A stretch of DNA of 64,000 bases from Bdellovibrio bacteriovorus (GTDB lineage Bacteria; Bdellovibrionota; Bdellovibrionia; Bdellovibrionales; Bdellovibrionaceae): contig NZ_LUKF01000016.1 of the NCBI RefSeq assembly GCF_001592755.1, forward strand, positions 124,001 to 188,000, given 5' to 3'. The notes below the pieces were generated by a model. The model ran no database searches. It was not told the origin of the DNA and saw only the letters and a list, made by a program, of their open reading frames with translations. Shown in pieces: positions 27,811 through 39,203 of the stretch (position 1 is its first letter; each line of letters starts with the position of its first letter). The position numbers and the translations under genes are program-made.

Positions 27811-28353
27811 TTATTGAATATGACGGTTGTTATTATTGCGAAGCGCATCGGACATTTCCGGTGGCATCAAGTTCGTGATCATATCCAAGGTTGTTCCCAT
27901 GAATCCTTTCTCACTGACTTCCATCTTCATATCCAAAAATTCATCCGTCATAGCTTCAGCCTCTTCATCAGTAAAAAGACCTTGGGCGGTGGTGAACATA
28001 TGTCCTTCTTCTTCTTGAATATGATGTTCCAAAGATTGACGTAACTTTCGCGCCGTCGCCTTCCAAGGCAGATTGGCCTTGTCCTGCACTTGCAACACAC
28101 GCAAGAGACCTTCGGCCTCCATGTGTTCACGATAAGCGTGCATGGCTTCATCCTTGGATGCTTCTAGCATACGCAGGGAATTGTAAAGCACCGCTTCTTC
28201 GGCACGCGCGTGGGGAATCAGCGCTTCAACGATCTGTTCGATTAAATCCGATCGTTCTTTCGAGGCTTCTCGAGTCTCGTCGAGCTCAAGCAAGCGCGCT
28301 AAAAGTTCTTTCACATCATCATGATCCTTACGGAGAGCTTCGTAAATAAGCAT
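27811..28353 (-). CDS. Hemerythrin HHE domain protein
   Basis: A 180-residue helical protein with HHE iron-ligand candidates in order: RKDHDDV, IPHARAEEAVL, YREHMEAE, and LEHHIQEEEGHMF. This is the standard ligand spacing of bacterial non-haem di-iron hemerythrins, which bind oxygen or nitric oxide or buffer iron. It sits 73 bases downstream of the cyanophycinase stop on the same strand, so it may be the last gene of the cyanophycin operon. The ATG follows CGAGGATACT. Confidence 0.85.
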   Translation of the reverse strand: MLIYEALRKDHDDVKELLARLLELDETREASKERSDLIEQIVEALIPHARAEEAVLYNSLRMLEASKDEAMHAYREHMEAEGLLRVLQVQDKANLPWKATARKLRQSLEHHIQEEEGHMFTTAQGLFTDEEAEAMTDEFLDMKMEVSEKGFMGTTLDMITNLMPPEMSDALRNNNNRHIQ

Positions 28354-28426: not shown

Positions 28427-29281
28427 CTAAGACAGGGAAAGTGCCGTGCGTTTTTTCAAATCAAAGACTTCGGGCTCGGACAGAACATGTAGCTTCACAT
28501 CGTGAATCGACATCGTCTGGTCCGCAGAGGCCTCAGAGATATTCGTATAAGTGACCCCGCGACCGTCCAAAACATAAACCGCATTTTCACCCATGATGCG
28601 GAACTTTTCATTTTCAACAATGATGGCGGTGCCTTCATCAATTCCAATTCCTAAAACACCGGGATTAAGAGCGACCGCCCCTAAAAGTCTTCCGATACGC
28701 CCCCGTTGCGCGAAGTGCTGATCGATGATCAGGCTTTCCACAAATCTCATTCCCGGCGCCATCATCCAGTTTCCGACTTTGTGAGACTCGGCGTTTTCCC
28801 CGCCTACGAGCATGATTTCACCCATGACGCTAGCGCCGGCTGAAGTTCCCGCGAGAGTTCCGCCTTTTTTAAAGACGTCGATGATGTAATCCATCACCAA
28901 AGTACCACCGAGTTTACTAGTGAGTTTTAATTGATCCCCGCCGGTGAAAAAAACCACCTTTGCTTTATCAAACATTTTTTGCAGATCCATGTTGCGCACT
29001 TCTTCAGGTTGATTGCAGTGAAAGTGCTCAATTTTTTTGACACCGAGTTTTTTAAAGATCTCTCGATATTCGGGAAAGACTTCTTCAGGCACTTCGCTGG
29101 CCGCGGTGATAACAATCAGTTTTCCGCCATTCACTCGAGCGGCTATTTCTTTTAAGATTCTTTTTTCTCCTGTTTTATCCTCACGTCCTCCAATGATGAT
29201 CAGGGTTCCGTGAGGATGGAGTACTTTGACATGTCTGGCTTCAGATCGGCGGATCTTTTTCTTTGCGGATTCCATAAACAT
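28427..29281 (-). CDS. cphB: Cyanophycinase
   Basis: A 284-residue peptidase S51-family enzyme that cuts cyanophycin (poly-aspartate with arginine side branches) into beta-Asp-Arg dipeptides. The nucleophile serine sits in GTSAGASVMGE near residue 147, and FFTGGDQLKLT, MRFVESLIIDQHF and GIGIDEGTAI are typical of the family. There is no signal peptide, so it acts in the cytoplasm on stored granules. The ATG at 29281 follows AAGGGA; its start overlaps the end of iadA by 41 bases. Order in the operon is cphA, iadA, cphB. Confidence 0.9.
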   Translation of the reverse strand: MFMESAKKKIRRSEARHVKVLHPHGTLIIIGGREDKTGEKRILKEIAARVNGGKLIVITAASEVPEEVFPEYREIFKKLGVKKIEHFHCNQPEEVRNMDLQKMFDKAKVVFFTGGDQLKLTSKLGGTLVMDYIIDVFKKGGTLAGTSAGASVMGEIMLVGGENAESHKVGNWMMAPGMRFVESLIIDQHFAQRGRIGRLLGAVALNPGVLGIGIDEGTAIIVENEKFRIMGENAVYVLDGRGVTYTNISEASADQTMSIHDVKLHVLSEPEVFDLKKRTALSLS

Positions 29282-30398
29282 CAAATTCCCTTCTTGATTC
29301 AGGAGGTCTGTTAATGAAATTTAATTTTCCATCTTTCATCAGGATCTGTCCTCGGGAAATAACATGTTTCATCTCAAAGGTTTCTTTATTAAAGACAGCG
29401 ATGTCCGCGTCACAACCCACGACCAGTCGCCCTTTGCGACTGAGCTTAAGAGCCTGGGCCGTGTTACTAGTGAAATGCTTCAGCAGGTCCTCAAGCTTAA
29501 AACCGTGTGTAAGAACACCCGCCTTCAGTTCGTACCAAAGATCCGCGGGAGGACCTTTGCTGGCGTCAGACGACACAGTCAATTGATCCAAAGGTCCTTG
29601 AAGGTCCAAGTAAACTTGATACCAGTAACTGAAATCTCGGTCCCATAAATCCAAGTCCACATAGCAACCCCTTCGCGCCATCTCGACAGCTTCTTTGATC
29701 AGAGCTTCGCTGCGACCGATATGGGTGATATGAAAATTGGCAGGCAAGACAACGTGTTTTTCCATGAGATCGCGCAGAGTCTGCATACGCCGAACACCAT
29801 CGCCGACATGAATATGAGAAACTCCGGGTTTATTGGCCAACATACCGCCGACATAGGCATCGATGCAGGCTTTCGCTAGATCTTTGATATCTGGCTCCGG
29901 AGCGCGACGATCGGCAATGGCCAGCTCTCCCACTCCGATGACCTCAGGAATAAAAATCAGATCGTTACGGACTGAATCCGTCAAAGTTTTCGGAGGACAA
30001 TCATAGCCGCCCGTATAACAGTAAGCCGTCAGGCCTAATTCGTTAAAGGCTTTACATCGCGCAATGAGTTCAGGCATGGACTTCGTCGTGGTGTCCACGC
30101 CGATAGTGCCAATTAAAGTCGTTACTCCGCCAGCCACGGCCTCGGAAAGCAGAATACTCATGGACTGTGAATGAAAGCCTCCGATTTCGCCGCTGCCTCC
30201 GGCCAAATGCAAATGCGGGTCAATCAATCCTGGAATCAAGTAACATCCTGAGCAATCCAAAACTTCAATATCAAGATCTTTCACTGTGCCGACTTCCAGA
30301 GTTCCGATTTTACTAATACTAGTTCCTGAGACAAAAATATCTTGTCCCAAAAACTGTGCACCATCGAAATACTGACCATTCTGCAAATAGACGAACAT
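29241..30398 (-). CDS. iadA: Isoaspartyl dipeptidase (beta-aspartyl-peptidase)
   Basis: A 385-residue amidohydrolase. Metal ligands are visible in LIPGLIDPHLHLAGG (near residue 63), FHITHIGRSE (near 220) and TVSSDASKG (near 280), in the order known for IadA. It hydrolyses beta-Asp-X dipeptides, including the beta-Asp-Arg released by cyanophycinase, yielding aspartate and arginine. The ATG directly abuts the cphA stop (TAA then ATG), with no ribosome site of its own, so translation is coupled. Context strongly supports a role in cyanophycin breakdown rather than repair of damaged proteins. Confidence 0.9.
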   Translation of the reverse strand: MFVYLQNGQYFDGAQFLGQDIFVSGTSISKIGTLEVGTVKDLDIEVLDCSGCYLIPGLIDPHLHLAGGSGEIGGFHSQSMSILLSEAVAGGVTTLIGTIGVDTTTKSMPELIARCKAFNELGLTAYCYTGGYDCPPKTLTDSVRNDLIFIPEVIGVGELAIADRRAPEPDIKDLAKACIDAYVGGMLANKPGVSHIHVGDGVRRMQTLRDLMEKHVVLPANFHITHIGRSEALIKEAVEMARRGCYVDLDLWDRDFSYWYQVYLDLQGPLDQLTVSSDASKGPPADLWYELKAGVLTHGFKLEDLLKHFTSNTAQALKLSRKGRLVVGCDADIAVFNKETFEMKHVISRGQILMKDGKLNFINRPPESRREFDVYGIRKEKDPPI

Positions 30399-33077
30399 TT
30401 ACTGCCACGCTACGTGTGAGTCTTCCTGGAAAGGTCTTTCTTCAGGCTGCGGCAGTGTCAAAACGGAAACGGGATCGTATTCGCGCATGGCTTTCATAAC
30501 CGCACTGATGTCCTCGTAAAGAATCACAAGAATTTCATCTTCCTGAATTTCTGAAAGGCCTTGGCTGACCGCCTCTTCTTCTTTCAGGCAGATCTCGTGT
30601 TCCAAACCCGGGAAGTCTTTGTTGTACATTTCGCTGATAAGCTGGGGAAGCTCCCCCACACCACGCCCACGAAGATCGGCGTCGTCACGTAAAATAACTT
30701 TGTCAAAGTACTCGGCGGCCTTTCTCGCTCCTGAAAGAATCAGCTCTGTCGTACGGTCCCCTGGTAATCCCAGGACGACGGTCTTTTTAAAGTTTGTCCA
30801 GCGACGAAGCATTTCACCGACGTGGGTGATGGCATCGGCATTGTGACCATAATCCAAAATCGCATATCCCGCTCCGACACGATAAAGATTTAAGCGGCCT
30901 TTGTTTTCTGAAGCGGGATGGAAGTTTTGGATGGAATCTAAAATTCTTTCTGCGGGAAGGCCCATAGCAATACCCGCCGCCAAAGCCGCCAGAATATTTG
31001 AAATTTGGAATTCGGCCATGCCACCTAAAGTGATCGGCATGTCACTGGCATAGGCCAGGCTTTGCACTCGCCCCTTATAAGACATGACGAGGTGACCATC
31101 TTCCAACCAGCAGGCGTCTCGTCCCATCGCCAGTTGTTCGGCAAAAGCAGGACTATCCGGTTTCGTGGAAAAGAGGATGATATTGCATCCATGTTTTTTT
31201 ACGCGGTTGTTGTTGATCAAAGACAGACAGTGTTCGTCATCGGCATTCAGCACCAGAGTGCCGCCGCGACGGACTCGTTCCGCAACGAGAGATTTAATCC
31301 ATAAAATATCTTCGACGGATTCAATACCGTCTTGCCCGATATGATCTGCACGAATATTCGTGATAATACCAACATCGGACCAATCATAGGCTAGGCCCCC
31401 GCGCAAAAGACCGCCACGCGCTAATTCCAAAACGGCGCAGTCCACAGCTTGATCACTTAAGACCATGTCTGCGGAAAGAGGTCCCGAGCAATCACCCGAA
31501 CAAATTTTCTTTTCACCAATCCAGATTCCGTCTGTATTCGTCATGCCGACGCACTTTTTTCCATTGTCTGACATAATTTTGTGCAACAGACGTGCGACCG
31601 TGGTTTTCCCATTAGTTCCGGTCACACTTATAATCGGAATACGGGCCTCTTCTTCATTCTTATACATCATATCCACAATCATGGAACCGACATGAGGCTC
31701 ATCTTCCTTTTTTCCCAAGAGGTGCATTCGCAAGCCCGGACCCGCATTCACTTCAATAACGACAAGTCCACCTTCAACAATGGGCTTGGTGATGTCTTTT
31801 GCAATGATATCGATACCGCAGATATCAAGGCCTACCAGTCGAGCGATACGCTCACAAAGAATGCGAACTTCCGAAGAGGCCACATCCGTCACGTCGATCG
31901 CCGTTCCGCCGCTGGAAAGATTGGCATTTCCCCGCAAAGTGATTTGTTTTTTTGCTTCTGGAACACTTTCTAAAGTCAGACCTTGTTTTGCCAAATATTG
32001 AATCAGAATCGGATCGACGACGACTTTTGAAAGATAGCTTTCATGTCCATCACCGCGCAAAGGATCTCCGTTAAGCTTTTCAATTAATGTCGAAATCGAA
32101 CTTTGACCATCCCCGATAACAAAAGGAGGCACACGCTCTGCCGCCGCCGCGAACTTGCCATCAATGACGAGCACACGATAGTCACGACCTTGCTGCATTT
32201 CTTCAATAATAAAACGGGAGGAAAGATCTTTCGCATTCTTGTACGCTTGTTTCAGCTCTTCGACATTCCGAAGATTCAGATGAACTCCCTCCCCGTGATG
32301 TCCGTCAAAGGGTTTTAAAACGTAAGGGGCTGAGAGGCCTTCGATCGCAAAGGCAATTTCTTCTTCGTCATAAATGGTTACGCCATGAGGGACCGGTATC
32401 AGGGCCCGACGCAGAAGAGATTTCGTCATCTCTTTATCCTGTACCAAATCCGCCGCGATCAGACTTGTGCGGTCCGTGATCGCGGACTGAACTCTTCTTT
32501 GCTTCACTCCGTATCCCAGCTGGATCAAACTTTCAGAGCCAATGCGCTTTGTGGGAATTTTCTTCTGACGTGCGGCCTTTAAAAGGCAGTCAGCACTTGG
32601 ACCTAAAGCACTTCGCTTGTGTGCTTTTTTAATATTGTTTAAGAAATAAGGCAGGTCGACACTCGTGCCATGCAACACATCTTCGACTAAATTGAAAGCC
32701 GAACGCAGACATTCCACCATTCCGCCTTCGTTATCAAAGCGAATGATAACATCATAAAGGCCCGGCGTACCGGCATAGCGAGACTTTCCATAGGTGACAT
32801 CCATTCCACTCATCGTAGAAAGCTCTAATGCCACATGCTCGATGATGTGAGCCATGTACGTGCCTCTCTCAAGGCGTTGAAAAAAGCCGCCAGGGATACC
32901 CGGAGAACAAGTGTGATCGTAAAGACTAGGAAGAGCCGCTTTGAGTCCATCGACAAAGCCGGGAATTTCATTGCTGGGCTTATCAGTCCATTCTTCAAGA
33001 TTCACTTTCATGACCATAACGGGAAGATGATGATAAACATTGGGACCATAAATCGGTTTAAAACTGACGATTTTCAT
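30399..33077 (-). CDS. cphA: Cyanophycin synthetase
   Basis: An 892-residue enzyme that builds cyanophycin from aspartate and arginine with ATP. The N-terminal domain (1-160) has the CphA mark GTYMAHIIEHVALELS. The middle is an ATP-grasp domain (about 200-470; YVLKPFDGHHGEGVHLN, VIEVNAGPGLRMH), and the C-terminal part is a Mur-ligase-like domain with the P-loop VTGTNGKTTVARL near residue 485. Length matches CphA (about 870-900). The start is chosen at MKIVSFKPIYGPNV, the usual family start, with GGAG seven bases before. iadA and cphB follow. Confidence 0.93.
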   Translation of the reverse strand: MKIVSFKPIYGPNVYHHLPVMVMKVNLEEWTDKPSNEIPGFVDGLKAALPSLYDHTCSPGIPGGFFQRLERGTYMAHIIEHVALELSTMSGMDVTYGKSRYAGTPGLYDVIIRFDNEGGMVECLRSAFNLVEDVLHGTSVDLPYFLNNIKKAHKRSALGPSADCLLKAARQKKIPTKRIGSESLIQLGYGVKQRRVQSAITDRTSLIAADLVQDKEMTKSLLRRALIPVPHGVTIYDEEEIAFAIEGLSAPYVLKPFDGHHGEGVHLNLRNVEELKQAYKNAKDLSSRFIIEEMQQGRDYRVLVIDGKFAAAAERVPPFVIGDGQSSISTLIEKLNGDPLRGDGHESYLSKVVVDPILIQYLAKQGLTLESVPEAKKQITLRGNANLSSGGTAIDVTDVASSEVRILCERIARLVGLDICGIDIIAKDITKPIVEGGLVVIEVNAGPGLRMHLLGKKEDEPHVGSMIVDMMYKNEEEARIPIISVTGTNGKTTVARLLHKIMSDNGKKCVGMTNTDGIWIGEKKICSGDCSGPLSADMVLSDQAVDCAVLELARGGLLRGGLAYDWSDVGIITNIRADHIGQDGIESVEDILWIKSLVAERVRRGGTLVLNADDEHCLSLINNNRVKKHGCNIILFSTKPDSPAFAEQLAMGRDACWLEDGHLVMSYKGRVQSLAYASDMPITLGGMAEFQISNILAALAAGIAMGLPAERILDSIQNFHPASENKGRLNLYRVGAGYAILDYGHNADAITHVGEMLRRWTNFKKTVVLGLPGDRTTELILSGARKAAEYFDKVILRDDADLRGRGVGELPQLISEMYNKDFPGLEHEICLKEEEAVSQGLSEIQEDEILVILYEDISAVMKAMREYDPVSVLTLPQPEERPFQEDSHVAWQ

Positions 33078-33276
33078 GAAGTAGCTCCATATTGCAACCA
33101 TTACAATTAACACGTCGTTTTGTAGGCAAGCCAATAGCCGATCTTAAAATTTCTGACTTTTAATTACGCCCCGAGTTTTTTCATTGTCGTTTGTCCACAC
33201 TGTTTTTTTTCGCTTGATTCGGGACAAAATACTTTCGCAAAAAGCCGTATTGCCAAAAGGCAATACGGCGGTAAAT
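33078..33276. other. Gap upstream of cphA holding a terminator
   Basis: About 200 bases between the upstream hemerythrin gene and cphA, both on the minus strand. It contains the hemerythrin terminator and must hold the cphA promoter. I see no clear -35/-10 pair; TTGCCT with TTGTAA at 17 bases is a weak candidate. No small gene. Confidence 0.4.
33239..33269 (-). terminator. Intrinsic terminator of the upstream hemerythrin gene
   Basis: An 11-base perfect stem (GCCGTATTGCC/GGCAATACGGC, loop AAAA on the plus strand, 33244-33269) starts eight bases past the hemerythrin stop and is followed on the minus strand by five T residues. It separates the hemerythrin transcript from cphA. Confidence 0.88.
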
Positions 33277-33825
33277 TTAGATTTGTCTTTGATGAGTGCT
33301 CGAGTGGCTGCGCTTTTCTGCCATCGGATGCATAAGAATCTCGATATCCTCTTCCAGAGCTTCTTCCACTTTAGATTTGTACTTATCTTTCATTTCTTGC
33401 ATGTCTTGAGCGATCTGCTGTTCTTGTTCTTTCGTGAACCATTTTTTTGCTTGAGGGAAGATTTCTCCCTCCTCTTCTTCAACGTGATGTTCAACGATTT
33501 CGCACAGTACTTTTATTTTTGCCTTCCACTCTTCTTCCTCTGCATCCATGCGAGAAAGCTCATTCAAAAGAAGTGACATCACGTGATGTTCTTCTCCACC
33601 TTCCCAAGCTAATTCTTCGCCTTCTTTTTCTTTGGCCGCTGTTTTTAGAGGCTCATAGAAAACTTGTTCTTCGGCTTTAGCGTGGGCTGTAAGTTCGGTT
33701 TTCAAAGTGTCAAAAAGATGTTCGGCTTCGGCATATTCTTCGCCGTCCAGACAGTCCTCAATTTTTTCAAAAAGCTTTTCGACTTCGCGGTGGTCTTTTT
33801 TTAGCATGTCGTAAATGCTTGCCAT
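33277..33825 (-). CDS. Hemerythrin HHE domain protein
   Basis: A 182-residue, strongly acidic helical protein. HHE ligand candidates are KKDHREV, TAHAKAEEQVFY, EEHHVMS and VEHHVEEEEGEIF. The C-terminal tail (last 35 residues) is rich in charged residues and histidine. It is a paralog of the protein at 27811-28353 and lies just upstream of cphA, ended by a strong terminator, so it is a separate transcript. The ATG follows GGGGGG. Confidence 0.85.
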   Translation of the reverse strand: MASIYDMLKKDHREVEKLFEKIEDCLDGEEYAEAEHLFDTLKTELTAHAKAEEQVFYEPLKTAAKEKEGEELAWEGGEEHHVMSLLLNELSRMDAEEEEWKAKIKVLCEIVEHHVEEEEGEIFPQAKKWFTKEQEQQIAQDMQEMKDKYKSKVEEALEEDIEILMHPMAEKRSHSSTHQRQI

Positions 33826-34220: not shown

Positions 34221-35390
34221 TTAGTTTTTGATGACAACCTTGACACAGCTGTCTTGTTTATCTTTAAACATTTTATAGGCGTCAGGAGCTTGATCAATGG
34301 AAATGCGATGAGTGATCAAGAATGAAGGATCCACGCGGCCTTGAAGAATCAAATCTAAAAGTTCCGGCATATACTTTTTAACGTGAGTTTGTCCCATCTT
34401 CATCGTCAAGGCTTTCCCAAAAGCCGCTCCCATAGGAACTTTATCAAGAAGTCCACCATAGACACCGGGAATCGAAACCGTTCCTCCTTTACGACACGCT
34501 TGTATCGCCTGGCGAAGAGCAACCGGTCTATCTGTAGTCATCTTCGCCACCATTTTCATATGTTCGTATTTACTGTAAAGATCTGTCCCGTGCGCTTCCA
34601 TTCCGACAGCATCTATACAGGAATCGGGACCACGTCCCCCGGTCATGATATTCAAAGATTCCAGCACGTCGACTTCTTCATAGTTTAAAGTTTCGGCGTT
34701 GCACACTTCGCGTGCCATGCGCAAACGCTCCGGCACGTGGTCAATAGCGATCACACGCTCGGCGCCTAACAGATAGGCACTTTGAATGGCGAACAGTCCG
34801 ACGGGGCCGCAACCCCAGACGGCGACAGTGTCACCTCTTTGAATATTGCAATTCACAGCAGCCATGTAGCCGGTTGGAAAGATATCACTTAAGAAAAGTA
34901 ATTTATCGTCGTCCATATCTTTAGGGACGACCAACGGCCCGACGTCACCGTAAGGAACACGAGCGTATTCCGCTTGGCCTCCGGCGTAGCCACCGTACAT
35001 GTGCGAATAGCCAAAAAGGCCGGCGCCTCCATGACCGTAGACTTTTTCTGCGACTTCCGGTTTCGGATTGCTGTTATCACAAAGGGAGTAATCTTTGCGC
35101 TCACAGAAAAAACAATGACCGCAAGAAATATTAAAAGGCACAACGACTTTATCGCCGATCTTTAAGTTTTTCACGCTGGGCCCTAGCTCTACGACTTCAC
35201 CCATGAACTCATGACCTAAAATATCGCCTTTTTGCATTGTCGGAATAACCCCGTCGTACAAATGCAGATCTGAACCGCATATCGCAGTGGAAGTGATTTT
35301 CACCACGATATCACGAGGGTTCAGAATGCGCGGATCCGGAACTTTTTCTACTTCCACGTGGTTGCTTCCTTGCCAACAAACTGCTCTCAT
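34221..35390 (-). CDS. Zinc-dependent alcohol dehydrogenase (formaldehyde dehydrogenase-like)
   Basis: A 389-residue medium-chain dehydrogenase. Catalytic-zinc ligands are in [14 protein letters not shown] (Cys near 38) and [16 protein letters not shown] (His-Glu near 60). The structural-zinc loop [15 protein letters not shown] is at about 90-110, and the NAD-binding [11 protein letters not shown] near 190. The closest group is the glutathione-independent formaldehyde/threonine dehydrogenase-like enzymes. It may detoxify aldehydes. Strong AAAGGAGG site at the start. It lies downstream of the SRPBCC gene by 11 bases and of the GH2 gene, forming a minus-strand operon. Confidence 0.87.
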
Positions 35391-35401
35391 CGGAGCCTCC
35401 T

Positions 35402-35968
35402 TTAATGAAGTGCCGTTTTAGTTTCGTGTTCTCGATTGTTGCCTGCAGACTGCCCTTCCACTGTTGGAATCTCTCGGGCTTCAAAAAGGGCGCGCAGTTT
35501 AAATAAATTTAAACGCAGGTTTCGGCCCGGACTTTCACCAAGAAGTTTTTCAAAGAGCTCTGTGATTTTCCCCCCGGGAAGATCATAAGCGAGCTTCACT
35601 TTCACTTGGGTGCCTCGCCCATATGGCAGCTCTAAAAACTCCACTCGTCCCGAATGCTGAAGGTCTTCGGTGGCTCCCGTGGATTTCCAGGCGATTAAAG
35701 AAAAAGGCACTTCTTGAACAATCTCACAGTCCCATTCGATCGTCTTTTTGCCTTTCAGGGCTTTCCACACCCAATGGGATTTCGTCTCTGAAGTCACGAC
35801 GACGGATTCTAACTGATCCGTGAAAAGAGTGAAGTGAGTCACATCCCGCCAGAAGTTGTAAAGTTCCTGCGCGGAAGCTTTGATGGTGATCGCCTCTTCG
35901 GTGTAAATGTCATCCGGTAAGGTGTTGACACGTTGGCTTTCCTTGGAGCTGACTATTTCTTTTTCCAT
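35402..35968 (-). CDS. SRPBCC/START-like fold protein
   Basis: A 188-residue soluble protein with the hydrophobic-cavity START fold (polyketide cyclase/dehydrase group). The pattern shows an N-terminal amphipathic helix ([17 protein letters not shown]), alternating strands with HWVWKAL and SLIAWKSTG, and a long C-terminal helix ([10 protein letters not shown]). It may bind a lipid or other hydrophobic ligand. Partner genes are a glycosidase upstream and a dehydrogenase downstream on the same strand. Good AGGAG ribosome site. Exact role unknown. Confidence 0.72.
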
Positions 35969-35991: not shown

Positions 35992-37842
35992 TTAAATATC
36001 TAAATCAGGTTCTGGGGGCGGAAGCGGCGGCGGTTGCGGCGTTGATAACAGCTCGCCTCGCGTATATCCGGCACCGCGTGTGGCCCGCGCCATCGCATTG
36101 ATCGAAAACTTTGGTGTGCGATCGGCCTTAAAAAGTCCGTTCGCCTCTTGAAATGTATCGGTGAACTGCGTGTAACAGAAACCGCAAAAAAGTTCGATGC
36201 GATGAATAGCGTCCATCAACTTTTCATACTTTCTTCTAAATTCTCCCGACGATTGCACCGAAGAGTAACCCCACGTCGAGGTGCACTCAGAAGGATCGAC
36301 AAAAGCAATCCCGCCAAACTCGGTGATCATCACGGGCTGTCCTCCATGCGGATAGCCTTCCACGGTGAGAACTCGGCCCCCGGGACGATACTTCGTCAGT
36401 ACATCACCGATATTTTGGTGAGACGTGTATTTTTTTAAAAGCCGCTCCGGCTGATCATCATAGTCATGAATTCCTAAAAGATCCGTCGCCGTGCTTTCCC
36501 ACCCGTCGTTGCCGATACAAGGCCGCGTGGGATCCAGAGTTTTCGTGATATGGTAAAGAGCCTGCACGCAATGTTGATGACTTTCCTTTTCGGCGAGGTC
36601 CGGCACCCCCCAGGATTCGTTAAAAGGCACCCACAAAATCACGCTGGGATGATTCATATCGCGACCGATGACTTCGACCCACTCTTTCAGAATTCTTTCA
36701 ACGGACTCGTGCGTGAAGCGGTAAGCACTTGGCATTTCTCCCCACACGACAAGTCCCAAAACGTCCGCCCAATAAAAGAACTCAGGATCTTCAATTTTCT
36801 GGTGTTTACGAACACCATTAAATCCTGCGGCTTTGATCAATTCGATATCTAGTTTCAAAGCTTCCGACGACGGAGGCGTCATAAATGTGTCTGGCCAGTA
36901 GCCTTGATCCAAGACCATACGCAGATAATAAGGACGGCCATTTAACATAAAGCGATCGCCGTGAAAGGCGACACTTCGCAAAGCGGTGTAGCTTTTCACT
37001 TTATCTAAAAGAAAATTACGATCCCACAGTTCTACATGAACGGTGATAAGTGTGGGCTTTTCAGGACTCCATAAAAGTTCATTACGGAAGTCATCAATAC
37101 CAGGATCCGAAAAAGCAATGCGACGATGCACTTCTTTGTGAACAACGTCGTAGGAGTCTTGTGCTAAAAGCTTGCCTTCACATTCCATGCGCACGCGCAC
37201 TTGAAGTCCATCAGCACAAGGACCTGTGACAAAGACTTCGCAGCCCACTTCCCATCTTTCAATCAATGGAGTCAGACGCAGCTTTTCTATATATGTCTCA
37301 AAGACTTCTTCAAGCCACACCGTTTGCCAAATTCCGCTGGTGCGTGGATACCAGATGCTGTGCGGATCTTTTTGCCAATCCTGCTTGCCACGAGGTTTCG
37401 CGAGATCAAAAGGATCATCATCGGCACACACCGAAATCACTTGATCGCCGCTGTCACTGAGGGCTTCGGTGATATCCAGAGTAAACGGAGTGTGTCCACC
37501 TTCATGACAACCCATGTACGAGTTGTTCACCCAAACTTTGGCTTGATAATCAACGGCACCAAAATGCAGTAAGATGCGTTTGCGCGCAATTCGTTGCACT
37601 TCAAAACGGCGCTGATACCAACATCGCGGATGAAAGCCCGTGTCGCCAATGCCACTCGCCTTACATTCGGGCACGAAGGGAACCTGGATCTTTAATGGCC
37701 ATTCTTTAATTTGTGACGGATGTGAAAAGGCCTGTGAGTCATCAAATAAAAAAGACCAAGTGCCGTTGAGTGACATCCAATTACTTCGTTGAAAGTTTTT
37801 TCGGGGATACGGATCTAAGGTGATTTCATTTCGTTGTGGCAT
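35992..37842 (-). CDS. Glycoside hydrolase family 2 protein
   Basis: A 616-residue cytoplasmic glycosidase without signal peptide. It has the GH2 order: sugar-binding jelly roll (1-190), immunoglobulin-like domain (190-300) and TIM barrel (300-590). The acid/base glutamate lies in WVPFNESWG near residue 410 and the nucleophile in PVMITEFGGIAF near 510. Substrate may be a beta-galactoside, glucuronide or mannoside. The C-terminus is a short Pro-rich tail. It heads a minus-strand operon (GH2, SRPBCC, ADH) divergent from the glycosyltransferase operon. Start has GGAGGG. Confidence 0.88.
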   Translation of the reverse strand: MPQRNEITLDPYPRKNFQRSNWMSLNGTWSFLFDDSQAFSHPSQIKEWPLKIQVPFVPECKASGIGDTGFHPRCWYQRRFEVQRIARKRILLHFGAVDYQAKVWVNNSYMGCHEGGHTPFTLDITEALSDSGDQVISVCADDDPFDLAKPRGKQDWQKDPHSIWYPRTSGIWQTVWLEEVFETYIEKLRLTPLIERWEVGCEVFVTGPCADGLQVRVRMECEGKLLAQDSYDVVHKEVHRRIAFSDPGIDDFRNELLWSPEKPTLITVHVELWDRNFLLDKVKSYTALRSVAFHGDRFMLNGRPYYLRMVLDQGYWPDTFMTPPSSEALKLDIELIKAAGFNGVRKHQKIEDPEFFYWADVLGLVVWGEMPSAYRFTHESVERILKEWVEVIGRDMNHPSVILWVPFNESWGVPDLAEKESHQHCVQALYHITKTLDPTRPCIGNDGWESTATDLLGIHDYDDQPERLLKKYTSHQNIGDVLTKYRPGGRVLTVEGYPHGGQPVMITEFGGIAFVDPSECTSTWGYSSVQSSGEFRRKYEKLMDAIHRIELFCGFCYTQFTDTFQEANGLFKADRTPKFSINAMARATRGAGYTRGELLSTPQPPPLPPPEPDLDI

Positions 37843-38018
37843 GAACCCTCCGCGTTAGCTAGAGCGCAACTGTTTCTAAATATGAAAGGGTGTTGTCGGT
37901 TTCGCACTATGTATTTAGGCACCGGCCCCGGAGACCTTTTGAAAGCGTGTTCAGATTGGCTTCAAAATAAAAATCACCAAAAAACATTTATCCCTTAACA
38001 ACTTCCGAAAGGTGCAAC

Positions 38019-39203
38019 ATGAGTCTTACTTGTGAAGCTTCAGACTTGCTTGTGTTCTCTCACTTACGCTGGAACTTTGTATTCCAAAGACCCCAACATC
38101 TTATGTCGCGTTTCGCGACCTTTCGTCGAGTGTACTTCATCGAAGAGCCCATCTTTCACTCTAATGATGAAGCAGAACTAGAGCTGCATCAGTCCAAAGA
38201 AGGAGTGACGGTAGTCGTTCCTCACCTGCCAGAAAAAATCGGATCTAAGGATCATGACTTTGTTCTGCAAAAACTTTTGGACAACCTGATGAATGAAGAA
38301 ATGATTGAAGAATATGCGGCCTGGTACTACACGCCGATGGCGCTGAACTTCAGTCGACATCTTTCTCCAGCCGTGACCATTTATGATTGCATGGATGAAC
38401 TATCTAAGTTTCACGGTGCTCCCCGCGAGCTGATTGACCGAGAGCAAGAGCTTTTGAAAAAAGCCGACCTGGTGTTTACAGGCGGCTATTCGCTGTATGA
38501 AGCCAAAAAAGATAAGCACGACAATGTCCATCCCTTCCCCAGTGGAATTGACGTTCATCACTTCAACACCGCTCGCGGAAACAAGAACGACCCTGAAGAT
38601 CAAGAGCATATTCCCCATCCACGCATGGGTTTCATCGGGGTTATTGATGAAAGAATGGACATCGAGCTGGTTCGCAAAACGGCGGAACTTCGCTCGGACT
38701 GGAACTTCATTATGATCGGGCCGGTTGTAAAAATAGATCCAGCAAGTTTACCGAAGCTTCCCAATATTCACTATCTCGGTAAAAAAGATTATGCGGATCT
38801 TCCTAAATACATGGCGGGGTGGGATTGCGCCTTAATGCCTTTTGCCCGCAATGAAGCGACTCGCTTTATCAGTCCGACTAAAACTCCAGAATATCTAGCG
38901 GCCGGATGTCCCGTGGTTTCCACACCTATTCGCGATGTCGTAGAACCTTACGGCAATCGCAGTTTGGTCGCGATTGGCGAAACCGCCGAAGAATTCGTCG
39001 CTCACATTGAAGAGGCTTTGGATCGCAATAAGTATGATGCCGAGTGGTTAGGAACTGTCGACGAGTTTTTAAAAGACATTTCTTGGGACGAAACCTGGAA
39101 GAAGATGGCGCACTTAGAAACCCATCACGCGCGTTTGAAATCCATGCCTCCGGGAATGACGAATCCTGAAACAATGAACATCAACTTTTTACGGGGAATG
39201 TGA
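38019..39203 (+). CDS. Glycosyltransferase (GT-B fold, GT4-like)
   Basis: A 394-residue cytoplasmic glycosyltransferase. The N-terminal part has an unusual opening (LRWNFVFQRPQHLMSRFA) seen in GT1/GT4-like proteins next to UDP-galactopyranose mutase genes. The C-terminal Rossmann half contains PTKTPEYLAAGCPVVSTPIR near residue 290, the nucleotide-sugar binding stretch. No membrane segment. First gene of a five-gene plus-strand operon; the next gene begins three bases after its stop. AAAGGTG ribosome site. Donor sugar could be UDP-galactofuranose given the neighbours (inference). Confidence 0.8.
   Translation: MSLTCEASDLLVFSHLRWNFVFQRPQHLMSRFATFRRVYFIEEPIFHSNDEAELELHQSKEGVTVVVPHLPEKIGSKDHDFVLQKLLDNLMNEEMIEEYAAWYYTPMALNFSRHLSPAVTIYDCMDELSKFHGAPRELIDREQELLKKADLVFTGGYSLYEAKKDKHDNVHPFPSGIDVHHFNTARGNKNDPEDQEHIPHPRMGFIGVIDERMDIELVRKTAELRSDWNFIMIGPVVKIDPASLPKLPNIHYLGKKDYADLPKYMAGWDCALMPFARNEATRFISPTKTPEYLAAGCPVVSTPIRDVVEPYGNRSLVAIGETAEEFVAHIEEALDRNKYDAEWLGTVDEFLKDISWDETWKKMAHLETHHARLKSMPPGMTNPETMNINFLRGM

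Follow-up and report, generated by a model that had tools for sequence, protein, structure and literature searches.

The window, by which we mean the whole 64,000-nucleotide stretch of DNA analysed, lies on contig C16 of a Bdellovibrionaceae genome of 3.66 Mb that is 99.99% complete. Read from the open reading frame list and then at the level of single bases, its minus strand carries cphA, iadA and cphB head to tail (Table 1). The stop codon of cphA is followed by the start codon of iadA with no gap (TAA then ATG), and the start of cphB falls within iadA. The listed start of cphB is a TTG at 29284, with the stop at 28427; an ATG at 29281, where a ribosome-site-like stretch, AGAAGGGAA, is present, is the more likely start and gives an overlap with iadA of 41 bases rather than the 44 counted from the TTG. 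An earlier note on this DNA had described a one-strand operon with abutting or overlapping ends, and that description is correct to the base.

Table 1. Predicted features at and around the cphA-iadA-cphB locus, in window coordinates
Feature	Position	Strand	Description
hemerythrin-domain gene, downstream	27811..28353	-	73 bases after cphB; PF01814; NF053874 (PA2171 family) 64 bits, cut-off 190
cphB	28427..29281	-	intracellular cyanophycinase, peptidase family S51, 284 aa
iadA	29241..30398	-	ATG at 30398; isoaspartyl dipeptidase (M38 amidohydrolase), divergent short-loop form, 385 aa
cphA	30399..33077	-	ATG at 33077, TAA at 30401-30399; cyanophycin synthetase 1 with N, ATP-grasp G and Mur-ligase M domains, 892 aa
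intrinsic terminator of upstream hemerythrin gene	33244..33269	-	11-pair hairpin then TTTTT
hemerythrin-domain gene, upstream	33277..33825	-	terminator between gene and cphA; PF01814; NF053874 104 bits, cut-off 190

Because the intrinsic terminator closes the upstream hemerythrin gene, cphA is most likely transcribed from a start of its own, lying between that terminator and position 33077. An alignment of 11 upstream regions held nothing in common beyond the closest pair, consensus promoters upstream were no more frequent than in shuffled sequence, and an Rfam search of the window returned zero RNA families. No terminator-like site was found in the gap between cphB and the downstream hemerythrin gene, which is a possible fourth member of the operon.

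CphA scores 1057 bits against TIGR02068 over residues 2-866 (cut-off 850; NCBIfam) and matches PDB 7lg5 and 7wac over its full length, with 7lgn and 7lgm as further solved relatives. In the alignment, the equivalents of H57, C59, R70, H79, E82 and H83 are present in the N domain, those of H267 and R309 in the G domain, and those of the P-loop K, D585 and H586 in the M domain; the primer-making motif Cx19HxxEH reads C57, H77, E80 and H81 in the window protein. R309 and the P-loop K we take to be catalytic from the PDB alignment and from general knowledge of the ATP-grasp and Mur-ligase folds. For the N-domain motif, which is optional and carried by 83% of CphA1s, and for H267, D585 and H586, the roles are those described in PMC9262961. 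Loss of catalytic residues from the ATP-grasp or Mur-ligase domain, which the earlier note had raised against its own reading, was looked for in this alignment and none was found in the window CphA. The tested residues are likewise intact in all 12 Bdellovibrionota rows of the alignment, the sole exception being locus L101, which has Q where the others have H267. The window protein is thus probably a cyanophycin synthetase with all three active sites kept, and is predicted to be active. It resembles CphA1 of Synechocystis sp. UTEX 2470 (PDB 7lg5, 7txv; PMC9262961) in its full-length match, its Cx19HxxEH motif and its tested G and M residues, whereas its host is non-cyanobacterial and lacks the standard de novo arginine route. 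Elsewhere, cphA genes occur in tandem in Clostridium lacusfryxellense (L031, 8001-13238) and in Nitrosomonas (L035-L037); of the Nitrosomonas pair, one copy lacks residues of the N-domain motif, and tested M-domain positions are changed in the other, as if the two paralogues had divided the work.

CphB scores 263 bits against TIGR02069 (cut-off 127; NCBIfam). It shares with the solved cyanophycinases (PDB 7uqv, 3en0) a full-length match and the motifs GTSAGA, DQHF and GIDE, and differs from them just by ordinary sequence divergence. In the alignment GTSAGA falls on the nucleophile, where the 7uqw chain has GTAAGA. Judged by eye, the N-terminus has no signal-peptide-like stretch.

The third protein departs further from its references. 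The operon IadA scores 275 bits against TIGR01975 (NCBIfam), its best match by far, which is below the cut-off of 331; its sequence is clearly related to the IadA family but divergent. Its solved relatives are PDB 7cdh, 5xgw, 8dqn and 1onw, and the match to the PDB IadA has an E-value of 8e-67. The metal ligands and catalytic Asp (H68, H70, K/E162, H201, H230 and D285 in the reference) correspond to H62, H64, E158, H197, H226 and D278, and Y132, R165, R229 and E71 are present as well. Among the substrate contacts (reference E77, T106 and R233), E71 and R229 are kept, and V101 stands where E. coli IadA has T106. In addition, about 16 residues directly after D278 (reference D285) are missing; in the solved enzymes this region is close to the substrate opening (PMC10206079). 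The predicted fold has a mean pLDDT of 44, too poor for judging the pocket. The earlier note's reading of a complete cyanophycin pathway is supported.

Among the closest published counterparts are cphA1-cyanophycinase-iadA clusters such as that of Leucothrix mucor, which brings the same three activities together and whose IadA likewise has a Glu in place of the carboxylated lysine (Lys162) of E. coli IadA, the position of E158 here (PMC10206079). The L. mucor enzyme keeps the T at the T106 position and the long loop, whereas the window enzyme has the V and is without the pocket loop; the window genes, moreover, abut or overlap, and their host is an arginine-auxotrophic member of the Bdellovibrionaceae. 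In the alignment, operon IadA proteins from other families of the phylum share the V and the short loop. Stand-alone IadA paralogues of the window host and of another genome (G010) have an S at the T106 position and the short loop too. The host paralogue (L119, at about G000:C16:215015-216160) lies outside the window, is 44% identical and scores 333.7 bits, above the cut-off; G010 likewise holds its paralogue as a second IadA. The short-loop IadA, almost confined to these operons, offers a test case for dedicated cyanophycin dipeptidases; the two enzymes studied to date had not become dedicated (PMC10206079).

The V in place of T106 and the roughly 16 residues missing beside the active site could also mean that the short-loop IadA acts on some other beta-aspartyl compound, or that the enzymes handle a related polymer, for instance a lysine-rich one, as some CphA1 enzymes do take lysine, less efficiently (PMC10206079). 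We think this unlikely, as CphA exceeds the cut-off for cyanophycin synthetase by a wide margin and CphB passes that for cyanophycinase.

Purifying selection acts strongly on all three genes, with dN/dS values against the closest relative (G005) of 0.026 for cphA, 0.030 for iadA and 0.002 for cphB, at a dS near saturation, that of cphA included. This bears on a reading in which the main task of the cluster would be to obtain cyanophycin or beta-aspartyl dipeptides by scavenging, from prey or from the surroundings, with CphA in a minor or recycling role. Loci with cyanophycinase and iadA genes and without cphA1 are indeed known utilisation loci (PMC10206079). Here, however, cphA is the first gene, with its three active sites kept and strong purifying selection acting on it, CphB is without an obvious export signal and the cluster contains zero transporter genes, and scavenging as the main role seems improbable to us.

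Across the phylum, cphA was found in 22 of 369 genomes and IadA in 14 of 369. All 14 genomes with IadA also hold CphA (hypergeometric 4e-20, treating genomes as independent and ignoring phylogeny), and in 13 of these cphA, iadA and cphB form one cluster, so that the triple cluster is nearly fixed in this phylum as compared with the 37 of 231 (16%) of a published survey (PMC10206079). The earlier note had proposed a search for synteny in related genomes; same-order orthologues occur in several genera, with the order kept across families. Taken with the low dN/dS, these orthologues put the clustering far beyond chance. One genome of a different family (G088) has its iadA apart from cphA-cphB. 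Within the genus, probably Bdellovibrio, the cluster is present in 7 of 24 genomes (the contig of one, G011, ends inside iadA, hence its cphA is unseen) and absent from 17, and is therefore dispensable for the lifestyle of the genus. In the CphA tree the sequences of the class form one clade with full support and the genus members group together, a pattern consistent with an ancient gene that has repeatedly been lost or exchanged within the group.

Two species of another genus in the same family are unusual in their operon IadA, in which the HxH motif reads QLL (L116, genome G051) or QAH (L117, genome G053) and the other catalytic residues are kept. Metal-ligand histidine loss was found in these alone, and the protein may have lost or changed its activity while the rest of the operon stayed intact.

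A foreign base composition was considered for the operon and rejected, its G+C of 47.6% showing no foreign signal beside the 46.5% of the window. That composition also speaks against the operon being a relic, or an island acquired recently, that does little for its host, as do the dN/dS values of 0.002-0.03, the single clade of class CphA sequences and the gene order kept across families. Such a reading would draw on the patchy presence in 7 of 24 genus genomes and on the IadA histidines lost in L116 and L117, and we hold it to be very improbable.

The setting of the pathway is set apart by its arginine supply. Among the 24 genus genomes (2.9-4.1 Mb, many complete), argG and argH above cut-off were each found in 0 of 24, compared with 13 of 14 control genomes for each gene; matches below cut-off were short or weak and are probably related enzymes. 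Since both genes are absent, the arginine in any polymer must come from outside the cell, barring an unrecognised route, as the earlier note had supposed. In agreement with this, the metabolic model of B. bacteriovorus HD100 requires external arginine (PMC7529429). Arginase-family enzymes are present in 24 of 24 genus genomes, so released arginine could be degraded as well as used for protein. IaaA was considered as an alternative dipeptidase and rejected, none being found in 66 genomes of the family; the IadA enzymes are therefore the only recognised dipeptidases. Three genomes (G013, G045 and G048) have cphA-cphB without IadA or IaaA, and thus the last step is not universal; no replacement dipeptidase was found among the scanned neighbours of the iadA-less clusters. 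In that of G013 (L097, 7363-8418), the neighbour of cphA on the opposite strand is an arginine-handling gene of the dimethylarginine dimethylhydrolase or arginine deiminase type.

The earlier note had thought it odd that making and breaking enzymes should be co-expressed. This is in fact the common arrangement: cphA1 and cyanophycinase genes are clustered in 81% of the genomes that hold both, and triple clusters with iadA have been published (PMC10206079). In our view the locus is likely to serve its arginine-auxotrophic Bdellovibrionaceae host as a functional operon for cyanophycin storage. We infer that polymer forms and that the genes are co-transcribed, and likewise how the process is controlled, timed and tied to predation. 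CphA, its N domain making its own primers, would spend ATP on polymerising Asp with Arg taken from outside, giving an insoluble reserve of multi-arginyl-poly-aspartate; CphB would cut this polymer to beta-Asp-Arg, which the operon IadA would split into Asp and Arg. With all three proteins presumably translated from a single message, it is probably the supply of free Arg, Asp and ATP as opposed to starvation, together with the insolubility of the granule, and not transcription, that decides which way the flow goes. Arginine nitrogen would likely be banked in times of plenty, such as the digestion of prey if the species is predatory, and drawn on in lean, non-growing phases. Given the auxotrophy, it is plausible that the polymer would be made from prey arginine during predation; the earlier note had pictured such a reserve inside a bdelloplast.

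Cyanophycin has mostly been studied in cyanobacteria, which make their own arginine. In a probable predator that is without argG and argH and holds the full pathway, each stored arginine would be one taken from outside, and the operon offers an uncomplicated case in which the banking of captured nitrogen by a predator can be tested. Such a bank might explain longer survival between kills in some predators. In a literature search covering few subscription journals, none of the matches dealt, by title and abstract, with cyanophycin in Bdellovibrio. On the sequence evidence the operon is real and probably functional; its genes are of known kind, its setting is unusual and the form of its IadA is modestly novel.

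A hemerythrin gene adjoins the cluster in 9 of 14 loci (L095-L106 among the loci), on varying sides and strands, and some of these loci share no other genes. PA2171 of Pseudomonas aeruginosa represses translation and promotes persister formation (PMC13041383). The hemerythrin genes of the window appear distantly related to PA2171, and a tie to dormancy is only a lead. More tentatively still, and with considerable doubt, we can picture some Bdellovibrio-type predators in which cyanophycin is a bank of prey-derived nitrogen and arginine for the non-growing attack or dormant phase, served by a short-loop IadA subfamily specialised for beta-Asp-Arg and by a linked PA2171-like hemerythrin protein that slows translation in starvation.

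Other neighbours recur as well. In G088, iadA (L174, G088:C190) adjoins GH2 glycosidase and glycosyltransferase genes that are 61% and 56% identical to those in the flank of the window operon (35992-39203). Genes for a zinc alcohol dehydrogenase and an SRPBCC (polyketide cyclase-like) protein lie near the cluster in two genera (window 34221-35968; L103, L105), which suggests a small conserved neighbourhood of stress type.
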